This document shows, in pieces, positions 47,191 through 59,416 of a stretch of 64,000 nt of DNA. Source of the stretch: Victivallis lenta (lineage in GTDB: Bacteria; Verrucomicrobiota; Lentisphaeria; Victivallales; Victivallaceae); NCBI RefSeq assembly GCF_009695545.1, contig NZ_VUNS01000002.1, positions 62,001 to 126,000 of the forward strand, given 5' to 3'. The notes under the pieces are model-generated. The model was not told the origin of the DNA, ran no database searches, and saw nothing but the letters and a program-made list of their open reading frames with translations. Positions within the stretch are counted from its first letter, which is position 1, and each line of letters opens with the position of its first letter. Both the position numbers and the translations under genes were made by a program.

Positions 47191-49578
47191 TTTCGTCTCC
47201 TTATAGTTGACCCAGCGCGGGTTCGATACGGCGAACCGCAGGCGCGAACCGGGTTTGGCCCAGAGCGGCAGCTCGAAGCTCGTGAGCTTTTCAAGATCCA
47301 GCTTCCCGTTCATATCCTTCTTGCGGAAATTCGGATTCACCATCGACGAGAGCGGAACGATGAAAGTCTGTCCGCGCCGCAGCTCCTCCGTCTTGAAGGG
47401 CAGCGTAGCGAAGTAAGTCGCGCCGTCGGCTTCCACCAGGTTCAACCCGAGCGTTTCAAGCCCCTCCCCTTCCAGCAGCCGCAGTTCGAAGGCGAACGCA
47501 TCCGGCACATATTCGGGAAAATCGCGCACATCGAGCGACATCGTCGGCGAAGCCCAGACGTGGCCGACGACCCGGTTTTCCGCTTCCTGAAAACGGTAGT
47601 CGAACCGGATGTCGCCGTCTCCGGCGGAAATCTCCATTTCGGAGCCTTTGATGAGGTATTTACGCCAGTTTCCGGCCTTCTCCCACCCCGGAACCGGAGT
47701 CTCCGCGTCCCCCGGCAGAAGGCGGGTGCGAACCGGAGTGAAGTTCGCAACCAGCACGCTCTCTCCCTCTCCGCCGAAGTTTCCGCGAATGACGAGCCGC
47801 GACGGCGCCGCAGTGCCGGAGAGCCGGTCAAGCCTGAGCCTGAGCGGCAGCACTACGCGTGAATCCGCCGGGAGTTCGATTCCGGCCAGCTCGAATGAAT
47901 CGGCTTCGCCGTTCGGGAACTCGACCGATATTTTCCCCGACAGCGGGGCATCGGAGAAGTTGCAGACCGCGAGCGGATAGTTTCTCTCCTCCCCGACCGG
48001 CAGCATAAACGTATCGGCGGCCGAATTCTTGATGCCGTCCGGCAGTTCGAGATTCAGCACAACCCGGGACGGCGCTTTCAGCGGCTCGGGAACCGGCATG
48101 GGGACGAACTCGATTCCGGCGGCCGTCCGGAACAGGTAAACCGGCATATCGGTCAGGACGATTTTCCCGCCTCCGATATCGACCGGGCGCCCGAAGGCGT
48201 CCCGGGCATACTGCGCCTGAGCCGTTTCGACCGCGACCGGCTTGCCGGAGTCGCTCCAGAGCAGCCGGACGCGGTGCGGAGTTCCGTCGAGGAGGATGGT
48301 CGCCTCGTAGCCGGTCACACCGGCCGGCAATTCTTCCAGCTGCCGGATTCCGCCGAAATTCTGGAAATAGTTTGCGAGCACAGCCAGCGTGACGAAACCG
48401 GGGCGCGGCGAGAGATCACGATGCCGCAGCAGTCCGAAGCTCATGCCGCTGACTTCCGTATGGTTGAAAAGGAAGAAGTAGAAAAGCCTGTCCGCCCCCT
48501 CCGCCAGCAGCGCCGCGCAGACCTTCGGGATATCGAGCGCCTGCTGCCGCGCCGCTTCAGGCGCGAATTCGCCGGTCTCCGGATCGGTCGGAAAGCTGCC
48601 CGTGGAGACTTCGGTCAGCCAGACCGGAAGTCCGTCCGCTGCCGCAGCAAGCTTCGCGGCCCGTGCCGCCGTATCCTCAAGACGCGAATGCGAATGGAAG
48701 CAGAAAACATTCTGATAATCGTTGAACCGGTTTTCCGCCAGCGCGGCCGGATGTTCCGGCGTGCCGCTGCCCATGAAGGTGATGACGGCGGGATTCGCGC
48801 GGAGCGCGCCGAGCGCCGCCGCCTTCTGGACCGCCGCGATCTCGAACGAAAGCAGACTGCCGCCGATCCCCTCCGGCTCGTTCCAGCTTTCGAGCGCCGG
48901 CATATTTTTCCCGAAGCGCGCCGTGACCGCCTTCGCGTAATCGTGTATTTTCGTCAGGTCAAGCGGCGGCTTTTTGGCCCCGAGCGCGGAGAGCGCGGCG
49001 GGATAACGGTCCTGTTCCGGCGTGCCGTACAGACTCTGGACGATTTCGATGCCGTGCTCCGCATAAGCCGCCGTCAACTCGTCGACGAGCCGGTCGGAGT
49101 GTTTCGGGTCGAGATAATCGAACGCCTCCCACATGATCCGTTCGCGGACGCAGCCGAGATTCGCCTTGCGCAGAAGCCCGGCGACGTCACCCGGCGTGTA
49201 ATCGAACTTCATGGAGCCGATCCGCCGCAGGTAAAACGGATAAAAAAGGGCTGCGTCAACCGCGATCGGCGAGGCCGGGTTCAGCTTTTCGACCGGGCGG
49301 ATCAGGACCGCCGCGCCGTCGACCGCCGGCCGGCCGGCGCCGTCCCTGTATTCGATGCGGTAGAAGCCGGCCGGGAGTTTACCGAGCCTGAGCACGGAAC
49401 CGCCGGCCGCCGGGTCGAAGGAACAGGCTTTCCCGTCGACGTCGGTCACACGGATATCCGTCGCTCCGGCGGGCAGCGCAAGTGCGACGGTCTCCCCTTC
49501 GACAAAGACGTTCCCCGGCGCGGCAGACAGAACCGCGGCGCCGAGACAGCAGAAGAGAGTGGCGCAAAGCTTCCGCAT
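46627..49578 (-). CDS. Secreted clan GH-A-type hydrolase reading in frame into a second secreted protein
   Basis: A 983-residue open frame. Signal peptide: [21 protein letters not shown] hydrolase barrel spans residues 100 to 420, with likely acid/base Glu234 in SWNEPEG and nucleophile Glu323 in WLTEVSTG (GH39/GH-A style). Beta-sandwich regions follow. Near residue 796 the frame passes without a stop into MKKLMSSLVAATALTAANAA, a complete second signal peptide with its own ribosome site. This points to two originally separate genes fused by loss of the first stop or by a frameshift. A TAA one frame away (47201-47203) sits just before the second start. It overlaps the pseudopilin stop by one base (TGATG). 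Confidence 0.75.
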   Translation of the reverse strand: MRKLCATLFCCLGAAVLSAAPGNVFVEGETVALALPAGATDIRVTDVDGKACSFDPAAGGSVLRLGKLPAGFYRIEYRDGAGRPAVDGAAVLIRPVEKLNPASPIAVDAALFYPFYLRRIGSMKFDYTPGDVAGLLRKANLGCVRERIMWEAFDYLDPKHSDRLVDELTAAYAEHGIEIVQSLYGTPEQDRYPAALSALGAKKPPLDLTKIHDYAKAVTARFGKNMPALESWNEPEGIGGSLLSFEIAAVQKAAALGALRANPAVITFMGSGTPEHPAALAENRFNDYQNVFCFHSHSRLEDTAARAAKLAAAADGLPVWLTEVSTGSFPTDPETGEFAPEAARQQALDIPKVCAALLAEGADRLFYFFLFNHTEVSGMSFGLLRHRDLSPRPGFVTLAVLANYFQNFGGIRQLEELPAGVTGYEATILLDGTPHRVRLLWSDSGKPVAVETAQAQYARDAFGRPVDIGGGKIVLTDMPVYLFRTAAGIEFVPMPVPEPLKAPSRVVLNLELPDGIKNSAADTFMLPVGEERNYPLAVCNFSDAPLSGKISVEFPNGEADSFELAGIELPADSRVVLPLRLRLDRLSGTAAPSRLVIRGNFGGEGESVLVANFTPVRTRLLPGDAETPVPGWEKAGNWRKYLIKGSEMEISAGDGDIRFDYRFQEAENRVVGHVWASPTMSLDVRDFPEYVPDAFAFELRLLEGEGLETLGLNLVEADGATYFATLPFKTEELRRGQTFIVPLSSMVNPNFRKKDMNGKLDLEKLTSFELPLWAKPGSRLRFAVSNPRWVNYKETKMKKLMSSLVAATALTAANAAGPARTVPVANADFAQAKADGTPEKWGISANSDPNFSAKIEDGALKLEAKSRTKWYSVYLAPADVKALPAPKEGEVCRIEFSYRQKNEGLKGHAFGTVEIRTGDHKRLAHKDGIDLAPDADWTERKLVLDLAEIPADGKYILLSFFLGDATGTARFDDVKLTVRTVKK

Positions 49579-50261
49579 CAGTTCACATTCCAGTAAAGGA
49601 CCCGGGTGCTTTCAGTCGGTTCGGTGCTGTAAATGAACGGCACCACGTCGAACGGATTGAGCGGATTTTTCGTCGCGTTGCCGACGGCCGCATGCCCGTC
49701 GAGATAGAGCAGATTCGCACGGCTCGAATGGCGCGAGGCCGGGCGTCCGTAATTCGCATTGCCCTTCGCCGAAGTGTCGAAGGCAGCGCGGAAGTACCCG
49801 TTCTCCTCCACGGCTCCGGTCGAACCGTTGTTCTGCCAGGCGTCGAGGAAGTGGAGCTTGCCTGACGCGTTTTTGATCATCGTCATGCGCCGCCCGGTAT
49901 CGTTGTCCCCGTTGACGCCGACATTGACGGCATAATGGGCGAACCAGCCGTCCTTGTTCTGCCTGTAGGAGCTCTGCTGCATGGACGGGCAGTCGAATCC
50001 GGTGGTCGGCACATATTTCGTCTCGGTGTAAAGACGCCGCGGCATCGTCCAGCCTTCCGCATAGGTCAGCGGCAGGAAGTCGGCGTTGTCGCTCACATAC
50101 TGGCCGACGCCGAGCCCGAGCTGGCGCAGATTGCTGATGCAGTTGGCGGCCTTGCCGCGCTCGCGCGCCTGGTTCAGCGCCGGCAGCAGCATCGAAGCGA
50201 GGATCGCGATGATCGCGATGACGACCAGGAGCTCGATCAGGGTAAAGTTTTTTCTCATCAT
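49578..50261 (-). CDS. Type II secretion-like pseudopilin with H-X9-DG motif (second copy)
   Basis: A 227-residue protein with leader and helix [20 protein letters not shown], then [20 protein letters not shown]; the N-terminal 40 residues are almost the same as in the pseudopilin at 25949-26692, but the globular part is different. It has the H-X9-DG motif in [16 protein letters not shown]. Its ATG follows the GH130 stop by 20 bases, and its TGA overlaps the next ATG by one base, so it is co-expressed with a GH130 enzyme and a hydrolase. Function is as for the first: a minor pilin or pseudopilus subunit, partner unknown. Confidence 0.92.
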
Positions 50262-54642: not shown

Positions 54643-55188
54643 TTACGCTTTACGGCGGCGCCACCGGCCGGCCGCCACCGCCATGCCGCCGACGGCAAGA
54701 GCCGCAACGACTCCCGGCAGCGGCTGCCCCGACGGAGCCGGGGCGGACGGCGTCGCCGTGATCGAGCCGATCTGAACGAACTCATCGCCGCCGCTGCCGC
54801 CGTTCTTGTCGAAGGTCAGATAAAGCACACCGTCCTTCTCCAGAAAACTGAAATCGGAGACGATGCTCCCGTTCTTCCGTTTCAGGAAAAAACCGATGTT
54901 GTCCCCGGCGGCAAACGGACCGAGGTCGATGGTTCCACCATCCTGCTTACCGAAAAGCCGGTCGCCCGGTGTGTTTTTCGAAGGTTCGTCCCGGTACGTG
55001 TAATAACCGAGGCCGGCGCCGCCGGCGCTTTTGAAACTGACCTGCAAAGAGAGCGATTCGAGGTTCTCGAGAACCGAGATCGAACCGTTTTCGCCTCTTC
55101 CGCCGAAATTCAGCTCATACTGATGGGCGGCCAACAGGGGAATACACAGAACCGCAGCCAAAACCGACAACCATGCCTTTTTCACCAT
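54643..55188 (-). CDS. Candidate exosortase substrate with C-terminal sorting signal
   Basis: A 181-residue secreted protein. It has a signal peptide (MVKKAWLSVLAAVLCIPLLA), a beta-rich middle (YELNFGGRGENGSISVLENL, IGFFLKRKNGSIVSDFSFLE), and a three-part C-terminus: a short motif QPLPG, a hydrophobic stretch VVAALAVGGMAVAA and a basic tail RWRRRKA. This is the layout of PEP-CTERM-type exosortase targets, with PLPG in the place of PEP. It lies 117 bases behind the EpsI-type gene, in front of which is the exosortase gene. It has a strong promoter and terminator of its own, so it would be made in larger amounts than the enzyme. Confidence 0.75.
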   Translation of the reverse strand: MVKKAWLSVLAAVLCIPLLAAHQYELNFGGRGENGSISVLENLESLSLQVSFKSAGGAGLGYYTYRDEPSKNTPGDRLFGKQDGGTIDLGPFAAGDNIGFFLKRKNGSIVSDFSFLEKDGVLYLTFDKNGGSGGDEFVQIGSITATPSAPAPSGQPLPGVVAALAVGGMAVAAGRWRRRKA

Positions 55189-55232
55189 GCCCGCCCTTAT
55201 TGTTTCTTTATTTTTTGGAAATCATTATTAAT

Positions 55233-55261
55233 ATTATACCGAACCCGCAGACAAAAAGCAA
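55233..55261 (-). promoter_or_regulatory. Strong promoter of the exosortase substrate gene
   Basis: Minus strand TTGCTT (55256-55261), 17 bases, TATAAT (55233-55238), followed by a 44-base AT-rich leader to the ATG at 55188. Confidence 0.7.
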
Positions 55262-55305
55262 GCCCGGATCGAAATAATTTGCCGAAATCATCACGATTGA
55301 ACCTG

Positions 55306-56406
55306 TCATCTCTCCGGCCGCGTACCGGACGAAAAGACTGTATTCACGAGGAAATCCCGCAGTCTCTCCTCAGCCGCCTCCCGGGAATCCGGCATCGGGG
55401 TCGAAAGCTGATACGCGAACCAGCGCTCGCTCCGTTTCCAGCTGCGGCGGAATGCCGGGAAATTTCCGCTCGACCATTCCGGCCCGCTGTACCAGACGTA
55501 GATCAGCGCCTTCGCCCGGTTCGGAAAGAGCGCGACGATCTCCTGCACCGCCAGCGGCCTCCCGCCCGGATTCAGAATCTTCTCACGGGACGAAAGCACA
55601 TCGCAATCCATGCTCTTCAAGCAGAGTTCCGCCGGATGAATCCGATGAATGTCCCCGGTTACGCCCACCGCCAGAAGCCGGATATTCTCCACGCTGCCGT
55701 AGTAGACCGCCCGGCGCACCGCGTGCCCCTCGAAAAAACGCTGCTCCTGTTCGGAAAGCACGGACGGGAAACCGAGATATCCGCCGACCTCGGTCCGTTC
55801 CGGATCGATCAGCAGCGGCTGCCCGTATCCGGCCCGGCTCTCCCGGCTGTAGAGAACGCCGAACAACAGCAGGACGCCGAGCACGAACAGCAGCGTCTGC
55901 AGCCGGTAAACCCGCCGGACCAGCAGAAAATAGACGCTCAGCGCCGCTGCGGCGCAGCACTTGAAGGCCAACCCGCCGACCGGGGCCGTCCCGGCCGAAA
56001 TCCGGATATAATATTCACTCCAGTAAGTCGTGGAGGGGCAGCCGGCAAGCGCAATCAGCAGAATCGGCAGCATGCCGGAAAACAGCCGGACTCCTCCCAG
56101 CACGAAGAGGGACGAAAAGAGAATCAGCAGCGCGCCCCCCGTCTGCACCGCATTCACCTGTTTCACGATGCCCGCTCCCCAGACTGCGACGGCCGGCAGC
56201 AGGAACCAGAGACCGCGCCAGTCGGGGCGCCCGGCCCAGTTGCGAATCCGTTTCCACCCCGCGGCGGTCAGAATTCCCGCCAGCAGGAAGAAACACCAGT
56301 CCCAACGGTCGAGCGGGGAATGGCGCCAGGCCTCCAGCAGATACCCGGATTTCAGCAGCAGCGGCGCAACTGCCGGAATCAGCAGCCGGTAACGTCGTTT
56401 CATCAT
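55306..56406 (-). CDS. EpsI-type exosortase-associated membrane protein
   Basis: A 366-residue protein. The N-terminal half has about six membrane helices (LLIPAVAPLLLKSGYLLEAW, WDWCFFLLAGILTAAG, LFSGMLPILLIALAGC). From about residue 200 a soluble EpsI-like domain follows: VGGYLGFPSVLSEQEQRFFE, VYYGSVENIRLLAVGVTGD, the motif HRIHPAELCLKSMDCDVLS and LIYVWYSGPEW. EpsI domains occur with or fused to exosortases. The ATG at 56406 overlaps the exosortase stop (ATGATGA), so the two are translated together. It may assist processing or polysaccharide export. Confidence 0.75.
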   Translation of the reverse strand: MMKRRYRLLIPAVAPLLLKSGYLLEAWRHSPLDRWDWCFFLLAGILTAAGWKRIRNWAGRPDWRGLWFLLPAVAVWGAGIVKQVNAVQTGGALLILFSSLFVLGGVRLFSGMLPILLIALAGCPSTTYWSEYYIRISAGTAPVGGLAFKCCAAAALSVYFLLVRRVYRLQTLLFVLGVLLLFGVLYSRESRAGYGQPLLIDPERTEVGGYLGFPSVLSEQEQRFFEGHAVRRAVYYGSVENIRLLAVGVTGDIHRIHPAELCLKSMDCDVLSSREKILNPGGRPLAVQEIVALFPNRAKALIYVWYSGPEWSSGNFPAFRRSWKRSERWFAYQLSTPMPDSREAAEERLRDFLVNTVFSSGTRPER

Positions 56407-57209
56407 TTTCGCTCCCATCGCCGGAAATACCTGCCGACGCCGACCATGAGCAGCGCCGAACAGATCACGACGCCGTATCCGAAAATCGTATGAAGCGGTT
56501 CCTCGAAGGCCCGGTTCCCGATGGCGAGCGAGAGCAAAATCACCAGGACCAGCCGCAACGTGTTCGACAGCACGACAATCGGCAGCAGCGTCAGGAAGTG
56601 CGCAAAGCGGACCGGCAGCGTCCGGTGCTCGAAATGCACGATCAGCCAGCCGAGCAGCAGCATGGCCTCCAGCAATTCGATGCCGCTGCAGGCCGACGTG
56701 ACCGCAACCCGGTTCCCGCCGATGAAGATGATCGCCTGTTCGAAGCCGCAATCGACGCCGGAAATCCGCAGCATCCCAACCGTCAGAACCGTGCAAAGGC
56801 GGCTCAGCGGAAAGCTCAGCAGCAGATAGAGAAATCCGGCGGAGGGAGCGACGACGACCAGCAGAAACGACGGCAGAGCCAGGCGCAGCAGCATGTAAAT
56901 TCCGCCCGAATAGGCACACAATGCACAGACGCCCAGCCACAACGCCCAGACAGCCGGCACGGCCGGGGAATAAAACGCCGCCGCGACGCCGAGCGCCAGC
57001 AAACTCCACGCCGCAGCCGAATCGTACCGGAACGGGCGCGGAACCGCTTCGCGGAGGGCGGAAAAGCCCATCAGCACGCCGAGCAGCCAGAGGACGAACG
57101 CCCCGGCCGTCCCGCCGTCGAGCAGCAGCCTGCCGAACACGGCAGCCGCGGCCAGCGCCATGACCCAGGCCGGATAAAAACGCTCTCTCACCAGCGGAAA
57201 CGACTCCAT
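56403..57209 (-). CDS. Exosortase
   Basis: A 268-residue membrane protein with about eight helices. The catalytic set of exosortase/archaeosortase is complete: Cys174 in VTSACSGIELLEAM, Arg219 in LSNTLRLVLVI and His240 in EEPLHTIFGYG; the 21-residue Arg-His distance equals that of EpsH-type enzymes. These transpeptidases cut at C-terminal sorting signals in the membrane. The start at 57209 has GAGGT close before it. It is followed by an EpsI-type gene and then by one gene with a fitting target signal. Which exosortase subtype it is cannot be told here. Confidence 0.88.
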   Translation of the reverse strand: MESFPLVRERFYPAWVMALAAAAVFGRLLLDGGTAGAFVLWLLGVLMGFSALREAVPRPFRYDSAAAWSLLALGVAAAFYSPAVPAVWALWLGVCALCAYSGGIYMLLRLALPSFLLVVVAPSAGFLYLLLSFPLSRLCTVLTVGMLRISGVDCGFEQAIIFIGGNRVAVTSACSGIELLEAMLLLGWLIVHFEHRTLPVRFAHFLTLLPIVVLSNTLRLVLVILLSLAIGNRAFEEPLHTIFGYGVVICSALLMVGVGRYFRRWERK

Positions 57210-57263
57210 CACGACCTCTTGATTGAAGAAAAGGAGAAACGGCTGCACGACGGATCGGAGCAT

Positions 57264-57291
57264 AACATACCATCTCCGGCACCTTTTGCAA
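57264..57291 (-). promoter_or_regulatory. Promoter of the exosortase gene
   Basis: Minus strand TTGCAA (57286-57291), 16 bases, TATGTT (57264-57269), 55 bases before the start at 57209. The divergent TPR gene promoter lies 52 bases away. Confidence 0.45.
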
Positions 57292-57342
57292 TCCGTAAAT
57301 CGCCACGAATGAATAAATAATGAAAGAAAATCGTTTCCGGGA

Positions 57343-57372
57343 TTGAAGAGCGGATGTACCGGCGTATATTAT
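57343..57372 (+). promoter_or_regulatory. Promoter of the TPR protein gene
   Basis: TTGAAG at 57343-57348 with TATTAT at 57367-57372 (18-base spacer) or TATATT at 57365-57370 (16 bases), then a leader of about 35 bases to the ATG. Confidence 0.45.
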
Positions 57373-57412
57373 GTGGAAACACCAAGTTTCACCACCTCCG
57401 GAACAACACCGC

Positions 57413-59416
57413 ATGAAAAAAGCAAAGTTTCTCCTGCCGGCCGCCGTCACCGCACTCTCCGCACTCTGCCTCGCCGTCATCGTCTGGCTCGCCGTCGCCG
57501 GCAGGCGGGACGCGGCAGAATTCGCCGAAGCTGCCGGCGCATTCGAACAGGGAGACTACCGGAGCGCGCTGCCCCGGCTCGCCGCGGTCGTCGGAAAAGA
57601 CCCGTCCAACGCGGCGGCCTATCGCATGCTGGGCGCCATTTTCGAATCGGAGCGCAACTACTCCTCGGCGCTCTTCTGCTACCGCCAGGCGAAGGGGCTC
57701 GACCCGCAGGACCCGGCGCTGAAGACAAAGTACGCCGAAATGCTGAGCGCCGTCGGCGACGCCCGGACGCTGCTGAACAGCTTCAAGCAGGATTTCGACC
57801 GGAAAAAGCTGTCGGGCGACGACCTGTTCTATTATCTGGAAGCGCTGATCGCCGACGGAAAATCCGAAGCGGCCGAAGCCGTCCTGAAAACCGGACAACC
57901 GAACGAGGCCGCACGCATCGCCTACCAGCGCGGATTTCTGGCGCTGAAACGAAACGATCCGGCAGCCGCTCTTCATTCATTTGCAAAGATTCCGGACGGC
58001 GCGCTGCCGGTTCCGGCGCGCCTCCGGCTGCTCGGCATGACCGGAGCGGTTCAGTTTGCTGCCGGAAACGAAGCCGAGGCCGAAAAAGCGTTCCGCCTGC
58101 TCGCCGCCGAAGTGCCGGAAACCGGCGATTACCTGCTCGCGCAGTTCTACCGCCGGACCGGCAGAGAACGCGAATACCGGGTTCAGCTTGAGGAGACCGT
58201 TCAGGCGAACCCGCTCCTCACCGCCGCCCGCGTCGAACTTGCCGAGCAGTATGCCGGAGAAAAAAACACCGCCGGGCTGAAACAGCTGCTCCGCCAGCCG
58301 AACAACCGCGCGGAAGCCGAAGCGTTCAGCTACATCGAAGCCATGCGCGCCCTGCTCGAAGGCCGGTTCGCCGATGCGGAAAAATCCCTGTCGGCGGCGG
58401 CGGCCTTCGCCGGCCGCCCGCTCTATCAGGCGATCCGCATGCAGTGCCGGATCGCCCGGCAGGATGTCGGCATGCTGCCGGAGAGCGTCAATGCGCTGCT
58501 CAGGCTCACACCGACGCCGGAGGCGCGCAGCCAGGTCGTCAGCGAACTTTTTCCGCTCCTGCTGGAGCTGGCGCGCCGCGACGCCGGAACCGAAGCGGCT
58601 GAATGCGCGGAGCTGATTCTGTCCGTCTCCGACCAGCCCTCGCCGGCGCGGACGACAGCGCTCGAAGTCCGGCTTCAGACCGCGGCGGCGGCCGGCGATC
58701 CCGCCGGAATACTCCGCAGCGCGGCCGCGCTCCTGAAGGAGAATCCCGATCACCCGGCGGCCAATCTGGCCATGGGCGATGCGCAGCTGGCCATGCGGAA
58801 GCCGGACGCGGCGCTCGACTGCTTCAACCGGCTTCCGGCCGACAGCCCGACCGCGCAGTTCGGCAAAGCGCGCGCCTTCGCCATGCAGCAAAAGCCGGAT
58901 GAGGCCGACAGGATGTACGCGGCTGCCTGGCGGCAGGCGCCCGGCAACCCCGTGCTGTTCGAGAGCTACGCCGCCTTCCTGATCGACCGGAAACGCGGCG
59001 GCGAAATCGCGGCTCTCGCCGTCGCGCTGCCCGCCACGCCCGGGGCCCGCCATCTCGCCGCGTTCCAGCAGGCCAGGGCCGCCGAAGCGGGGAACAGCCC
59101 GGACGAAGCCCGGAAACACTATCTCGACGCGCTGGCCGCCCTCGAAAAACTGCCGCCTTCCCCGGCCGTCGACTACCGGCGCGCCTATCTCTCCGCTCTG
59201 GCCGGGCGGGATACCGAGGCGGAAGCTCTGTACGGACGGCTTCTCGAAGACAATCCGCAGTCGCTGCCGGTGCTGCTGAACCTCTCCGAAGTCAAAGCCG
59301 CGCTCGGGAAAAAGCAGGAGGCGCTGTCGCTCGCCCGGAGCGCCGCGCGCCTCGCGCCGGACTCCGAAGCCGCCAGACAGTGCCTGAAAAGACGCGGGCA
59401 GGAGAACCGCCCCTGA
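57413..59416 (+). CDS. Large membrane-anchored TPR protein (PrsT-like), exosortase locus
   Basis: A 667-residue protein: signal anchor AVTALSALCLAVIVWLAVAG at the N-terminus, then about 15 tetratricopeptide repeats through to the end (GDYRSALPRLAAVVGKDPSN, NYSSALFCYRQAKGLDPQDP, KPDAALDCFNRLPADSPTA, DTEAEALYGRLLEDNPQSLP). It should stand on the outer face of the inner membrane or be released to the periplasm as a docking scaffold. Large TPR proteins often accompany PEP-CTERM/exosortase systems, and this one is divergent from the exosortase gene with a shared 203-base promoter region. The start 57413 is the family-like one, with Lys-rich MKKAKF. Confidence 0.8.
   Translation: MKKAKFLLPAAVTALSALCLAVIVWLAVAGRRDAAEFAEAAGAFEQGDYRSALPRLAAVVGKDPSNAAAYRMLGAIFESERNYSSALFCYRQAKGLDPQDPALKTKYAEMLSAVGDARTLLNSFKQDFDRKKLSGDDLFYYLEALIADGKSEAAEAVLKTGQPNEAARIAYQRGFLALKRNDPAAALHSFAKIPDGALPVPARLRLLGMTGAVQFAAGNEAEAEKAFRLLAAEVPETGDYLLAQFYRRTGREREYRVQLEETVQANPLLTAARVELAEQYAGEKNTAGLKQLLRQPNNRAEAEAFSYIEAMRALLEGRFADAEKSLSAAAAFAGRPLYQAIRMQCRIARQDVGMLPESVNALLRLTPTPEARSQVVSELFPLLLELARRDAGTEAAECAELILSVSDQPSPARTTALEVRLQTAAAAGDPAGILRSAAALLKENPDHPAANLAMGDAQLAMRKPDAALDCFNRLPADSPTAQFGKARAFAMQQKPDEADRMYAAAWRQAPGNPVLFESYAAFLIDRKRGGEIAALAVALPATPGARHLAAFQQARAAEAGNSPDEARKHYLDALAALEKLPPSPAVDYRRAYLSALAGRDTEAEALYGRLLEDNPQSLPVLLNLSEVKAALGKKQEALSLARSAARLAPDSEAARQCLKRRGQENRP

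Follow-up and report, generated by a model that had tools for sequence, protein, structure and literature searches.

A putative exosortase-type sorting system with its own SGQPLPG C-terminal signal and few substrates in Victivallis and related Lentisphaeria

Exosortases are widespread. In the PEP-CTERM/EpsH system (Haft et al., 2006, PMC1569441), a PF09721 enzyme with Cys, Arg and His in ACSG, NxxR and HxxxG motifs is accompanied by targets with a signal peptide and a tripartite C-terminal signal, an EpsI neighbour, a TPR partner and a link to exopolysaccharide, and all of these are shared by a locus that we analysed in a 64,000-nucleotide stretch of the genome of Victivallis lenta (hereafter the window). 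It differs from that system in that the signal is GQPLPG rather than PEP, the genome holds two targets against a median of eight (PMC1569441) and has no match to PF07589, and the enzyme falls below the TIGR02602 cut-off and in a clade apart from the PEP-type enzymes of the sampled phylum. The XrtD/VPLPA-CTERM system (TIGR04152) shares a P-L-P core with a small residue after it and supplies the best subtype model for the enzyme, but here the score is far below the cut-off, EpsI is not fused and a conserved GQ precedes PLPG. The XrtD motif, V-P-L-P-A by the name of its model, resembles the PLPG found here. LPXTG/sortase systems (TIGR01167, PF00746) also use a tripartite tail, but the enzyme here spans the membrane several times and belongs to another family, and there is no LPXTG motif; a few targets give marginal NCBIfam/Pfam matches to the LPXTG anchor, which we set aside as generic matches to a transmembrane segment plus basic residues. 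On comparison of these sequences we put at about 0.83 the probability that this is an exosortase-type sorting locus with a signal of its own (here called SGQPLPG-CTERM), few substrates and an exopolysaccharide link, separate from the PEP-CTERM systems of other Verrucomicrobiota.

The genome, that of a gut bacterium, is 5.5 Mb in size and congeneric with that of Victivallis vadensis, and the four genes of the locus lie where the initial annotation had placed them. An exosortase gene (56403–57209, minus strand) is followed by an EpsI-type gene (55306–56406, minus), whose start codon (ATG at 56406) overlaps the stop codon TGA of the exosortase gene in the ATGA arrangement noted earlier (a start at 56403 is the alternative), and then by a small secreted protein, target 1 (54643–55188, minus). 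Divergent from these, as had been described, is a large TPR gene (57413–59416, plus), whose product has an N-terminal membrane anchor and is PrsT-like, matching TIGR02917 at E = 2.2e-20 with 72.2 bits, below the cut-off of 312. A promoter-like site (TTGAAG-16-TATATT, 57343–57370, plus) was called by the promoter scan 5′ of the TPR gene, and the same scan of the region made no call at target 1. The near-consensus promoter attributed to target 1 thus stands only in part: a perfect TATAAT, a possible −10 read directly at 55238–55233 on the minus strand, lies about 45 nucleotides 5′ of the ATG, but the best −35 (TTGCTT, 17-nucleotide spacer) agrees at only three of six positions. The terminator claimed for this gene is present as a terminator-like hairpin of 12 pairs with a T-run 3′ of it (54622–54592, minus, by terminator scan), in a region where such sites are overall not above chance (8 versus 8.7). 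Elsewhere in the window, the reading frame at 49578–50261 has a pseudopilin-like N-terminus; such N-termini are abundant in Lentisphaerae.

The exosortase matches PF09721 at E = 9.7e-25 (87.8 bits, curated cut-off 25.7) and is the sole match in the genome, so that no second exosortase was found with this model. Its catalytic set of Cys174, Arg219 and His240 (numbered from MESFPLV) is as first described, and the three residues are invariant in 29 of 29 homologues, in the ACSG, NxxR and HxxxG motifs. Against TIGR02602, the model of the classical eight-transmembrane EpsH subfamily, it reaches 72.3 bits of the required 105.55. A PDB sequence search with the enzyme gave nothing; a single-protein scan of genome contigs found no relative and an alignment-based scan did find relatives. 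The plasmid collection held no match, so no labelled XrtA or XrtD references came from that source.

Target 1 carries a signal peptide and ends, in agreement with the initial annotation, in PAPSGQPLPGVVAALAVGGMAVAAGRWRRRKA, that is, APSGQPLPG, a helix and RWRRRKA; with the preceding residue the signal reads PAPSGQPLPG-TM-RWRRRKA. The codons from SGQPLPG through the C-terminus and stop (54643–54732, minus) match the tail profile at E = 1.8e-16. The structure model of target 1 (pLDDT 72) predicts a beta-sandwich and a C-terminal helix, and the best solved structural matches, at a weak level, are LecB/BclA lectins (Z 5.3, rmsd 4.3, 106 residues aligned); at such a Z we do not claim a lectin function. 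PDB sequence searches with the targets returned nothing significant. A Kiritimatiellia MAG (L188) encodes an orthologue about 6 kb from its exosortase, 40% identical over 159 residues and ending in APAGQPLPG.

Across the family the signal is usually P-[SAT]-G-Q-P-L-P-G, and behind it come a hydrophobic helix and a basic tail. PLPG is invariant in 26 aligned targets, with G154, P156, L157, P158 and G159 all invariant in the alignment (A5), and GQPLPG is nearly so, in proteins whose mean column identity is 31–35%. The targets match no PEP-CTERM or other CTERM model among those of NCBIfam and Pfam, nor did NCBIfam release 20, Pfam or the open full-text literature yield a description of an SGQPLPG signal. 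Variants of the signal were also seen. In genus g2, including G001 (L059, 1120–1833), it reads SGQPAPS with a short, weakly basic tail, GWRNIF. Targets of genus g47 (L245–L250) carry HGQPLPG, a helix and basic residues and, unlike all others, continue beyond these for about 45 residues more; we considered these matches spurious on account of their distance from the stop and rejected that idea, the sequences being secreted proteins with the HGQPLPG-helix-basic arrangement.

The initial annotation had counted a single substrate and suggested that enzyme and substrate might be a dedicated pair, which would fit the position of target 1 next to the enzyme and the single target found in 18 of 33 tag-bearing genomes of the same family (two in 11, three in three, four in one; E ≤ 1e-4). 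A search with the C-terminus of target 1 nevertheless brings up another protein bearing this signal, which we count as target 2; it lies on another contig (C14:74315–74416, minus; PSGQPLPGLLAALLVCGG...RNRKTRA) and its C-terminus is PVPSGQPLPGLLAALLVCGGTYTGYRLRNRKTRA. In V. vadensis the orthologue of this protein is the only clear target and lies about 95 kb away from the exosortase gene. With two targets here and one to four in relatives, the claim of one substrate falls and the dedicated pair is refuted in its strict sense for this genome; we regard a one-enzyme, one-substrate arrangement as highly improbable. The tail-profile search that the initial annotation had proposed brought out this one further target, and our searches, by profile and by pattern, agree on the pair: the tail profile (A1; built from 20 rows, of which one repeats that of the window target in truncated form) finds nothing else in the genome at E ≤ 0.1, and of eight codon-level GQPLPG matches two are C-terminal, ahead of a hydrophobic helix and basic tail. 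Many PEP-CTERM proteins elsewhere in the genome would have refuted the initial reading, and we found none (0 matches to PF07589). Among sampled members of the order there is only one PF07589 match, in a genome lacking an exosortase (G097); in the phylum as a whole, 228 of 388 genomes match this model. A system with few substrates and a signal other than PEP thus stands, even though the single substrate does not.

Placement of the enzyme within a known exosortase subtype, the other observation that would have spoken against a distinct type, was likewise not obtained, either against NCBIfam or, within one phylum, by tree. The window enzyme passes no NCBIfam subtype cut-off (XrtA, B, C, D, N, V, W, Z and others), and neither do the other members of what we term the SGQ-type family. 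It might still be argued that the family is a divergent branch of XrtD/VPLPA-CTERM, with a shared P-L-P-[GA] core and an EpsI split from a fused protein, since, of the subtype models, TIGR04152 gives the window enzyme its highest score (62 bits) and all 28 members match it. That score, however, is far under the 400 required and close to those of XrtA (58 of 208) and XrtV (51), higher scores with TIGR04152 (76–161) are reached by PEP-type enzymes of the phylum, and the targets match no VPLPA-CTERM model at E ≤ 10. We therefore consider a divergent branch of XrtD improbable and favour a separate exosortase type with the SGQPLPG signal. In a quick tree of 89 exosortases, with long branches and a comparison set from one phylum that lacks reference XrtA–XrtZ and proteobacterial sequences, a single branch separates the 60 SGQ-type enzymes from 29 others from Verrucomicrobiota (SH-aLRT 100). 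Profile scores are bimodal, 159–386 for the SGQ type and 30–89 for the others. The cleanness of the split owes something to sampling, as the SGQ-type set was gathered with a pattern derived from sequences within it.

Enzyme and tag also track each other across genomes. With the exosortase called over its cut-off and the tag at E ≤ 1e-4, the 78 genomes of the same family comprise 32 with both, one with the tag only, none with the exosortase only and 45 with neither, an agreement of 77/78 (Fisher p = 4e-21, a raw value that ignores relatedness). In the order (n = 137) the corresponding counts are 46 with both, two with the tag only, seven with the exosortase only and 82 with neither. Both tag-only genomes, G056 of the same family and G115, have a target and then a TPR gene running to the contig end, and we read these exceptions as contig breaks. 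Among the seven exosortase-only genomes, two have the gene on contigs of 3–4 kb, four belong to genus g47 and one is G114. The system is patchy within its own genus (5/9 genomes) and inside genus g15, a pattern that points to exosortase and tag having been gained or lost together more than once. The tail profile was built from targets mostly adjoining exosortases; it nonetheless found unlinked targets, including the one on C14 and others in V. vadensis, G016, G063, G065, G067, G069 and G070.

A C-terminal transmembrane segment with a basic tail is a common arrangement, and since the genome counts ignore relatedness the tag could in principle be an ordinary membrane anchor whose association with the exosortase reflects shared descent only. 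We think this very unlikely, as GQPLPG is conserved far above the helix or the remaining protein, presence and absence are coupled within genera, and the motif persists even where targets are unlinked, on other contigs. The suggestion of a distinct subtype is supported: from genome to genome the signal goes with the exosortase, no CTERM model matches it, the enzyme lies below the subtype cut-offs, and within the libraries searched the SGQPLPG enzyme–tag pair is an undescribed variant of exosortase sorting. Further out in Lentisphaeria, family f10 has the system without PEP-CTERM, a target of Oligosphaera ethanolica ending in SGKPLPG, and six other families (f9, f12, f13, f14, f16, f18) have PEP-CTERM instead. 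Three genomes of family f11 (G275, G288, G372) have three to five exosortase matches each and no PEP-CTERM or SGQPLPG match, and their sorting signal may be of another, unknown type. In a separate case, G003 has a degraded second exosortase with three in-frame stops (C264:24305–24856) and an intact copy elsewhere in the genome.

The cassette of one or two targets, TPR gene, exosortase and EpsI recurs in about 30 related loci of Victivallales/Lentisphaeria, usually in that order on a single strand; the window and its nearest relative (G070, L037) differ in having a divergent TPR gene. A TPR gene adjoins the exosortase in nearly all related loci, and EpsI lies beside the exosortase in 68 of 76 loci on named contigs. 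In many relatives, for example L042, the cassette is directly upstream of an exopolysaccharide operon encoding a sugar transferase (PF02397), a left-handed beta-helix protein, nucleotidyltransferase-like and Wzz-like proteins (both so named by sequence inspection only) and a Wza-like exporter (PF02563). Six such genes stand in the same order on contig C9 of the present genome, 24–67% identical, and include its sole PF02563 match. To call the locus self-contained, as was first done, is thus misleading; because the operon adjoins the cassette in many relatives and sits on another contig here, the isolated state of the cassette is probably derived.

EpsI was listed without known function in 2006 (Haft et al., 2006, PMC1569441). 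The window protein shares with EpsI (DUF3485, PF11984) its position after the exosortase and a conserved H-P-x-x-x-C, but it has a membrane half of its own, N-terminal to the periplasmic DUF3485-like domain, and matches the model at only E = 0.15, weak for a single protein. The assignment holds at the family level, where 24 of 25 members match DUF3485 at E ≤ 0.1 (best 8.4e-10) and H256, P257 and C261 are invariant in 41 EpsI-type sequences. Six of the 25 members match PF09721, and the membrane half may have arisen by duplication of the exosortase, although the profile–profile match is weak (63% probability). The structure model (pLDDT 93) shows the membrane half and a domain at residues 197–361, whose top structural matches are DcrB, SciW, PA94, Mog1, EagT6 and PsbP (Z 7.9 to 7.2, rmsd 3.6–4.4, 110–122 residues aligned); a Foldseek search with the model gave a best E of 3.4e-3. 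We take these six proteins to share one general fold, and the predicted Mog1/PsbP/DcrB/Eag-chaperone-like fold of the soluble domain is suggestive only. Eag chaperones such as SciW and EagT6 are described as binding the transmembrane segments of secreted effectors (PMC7773334), and the modelled likeness suggests that EpsI may hold the hydrophobic tail of the substrate.

We hypothesize, from the work of Haft and colleagues (2006, PMC1569441) and the position of the motif, that a target would be exported by its signal peptide and kept in the inner membrane by its C-terminal helix, that the exosortase would cleave it at or next to PLPG through Cys174 with Arg219 and His240, as their conservation in the family suggests, and that the cleaved target would pass to an acceptor, probably, judging by gene order in relatives, one tied to the exopolysaccharide export locus. 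EpsI and the TPR protein would be standing partners of the enzyme and would presumably hold or guide the substrate, and in this genome two targets would be served, one in the cassette and one unlinked. A more specific version, in which a separate exosortase lineage serves few substrates and one exopolysaccharide locus, and the Eag-chaperone-like domain of EpsI receives the substrate tail or the cleaved intermediate, is possible but doubtful; if true, it would give EpsI a function. A two-substrate system, in a genus whose cultured member V. vadensis has it, would be small enough to handle in studies of which proteins exosortases cleave, of the fate of the product and of the function of EpsI. 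The PEP-CTERM model finds almost no proteins in gut and rumen Lentisphaeria, and with the signal profile annotators could find sorted surface proteins in these organisms.
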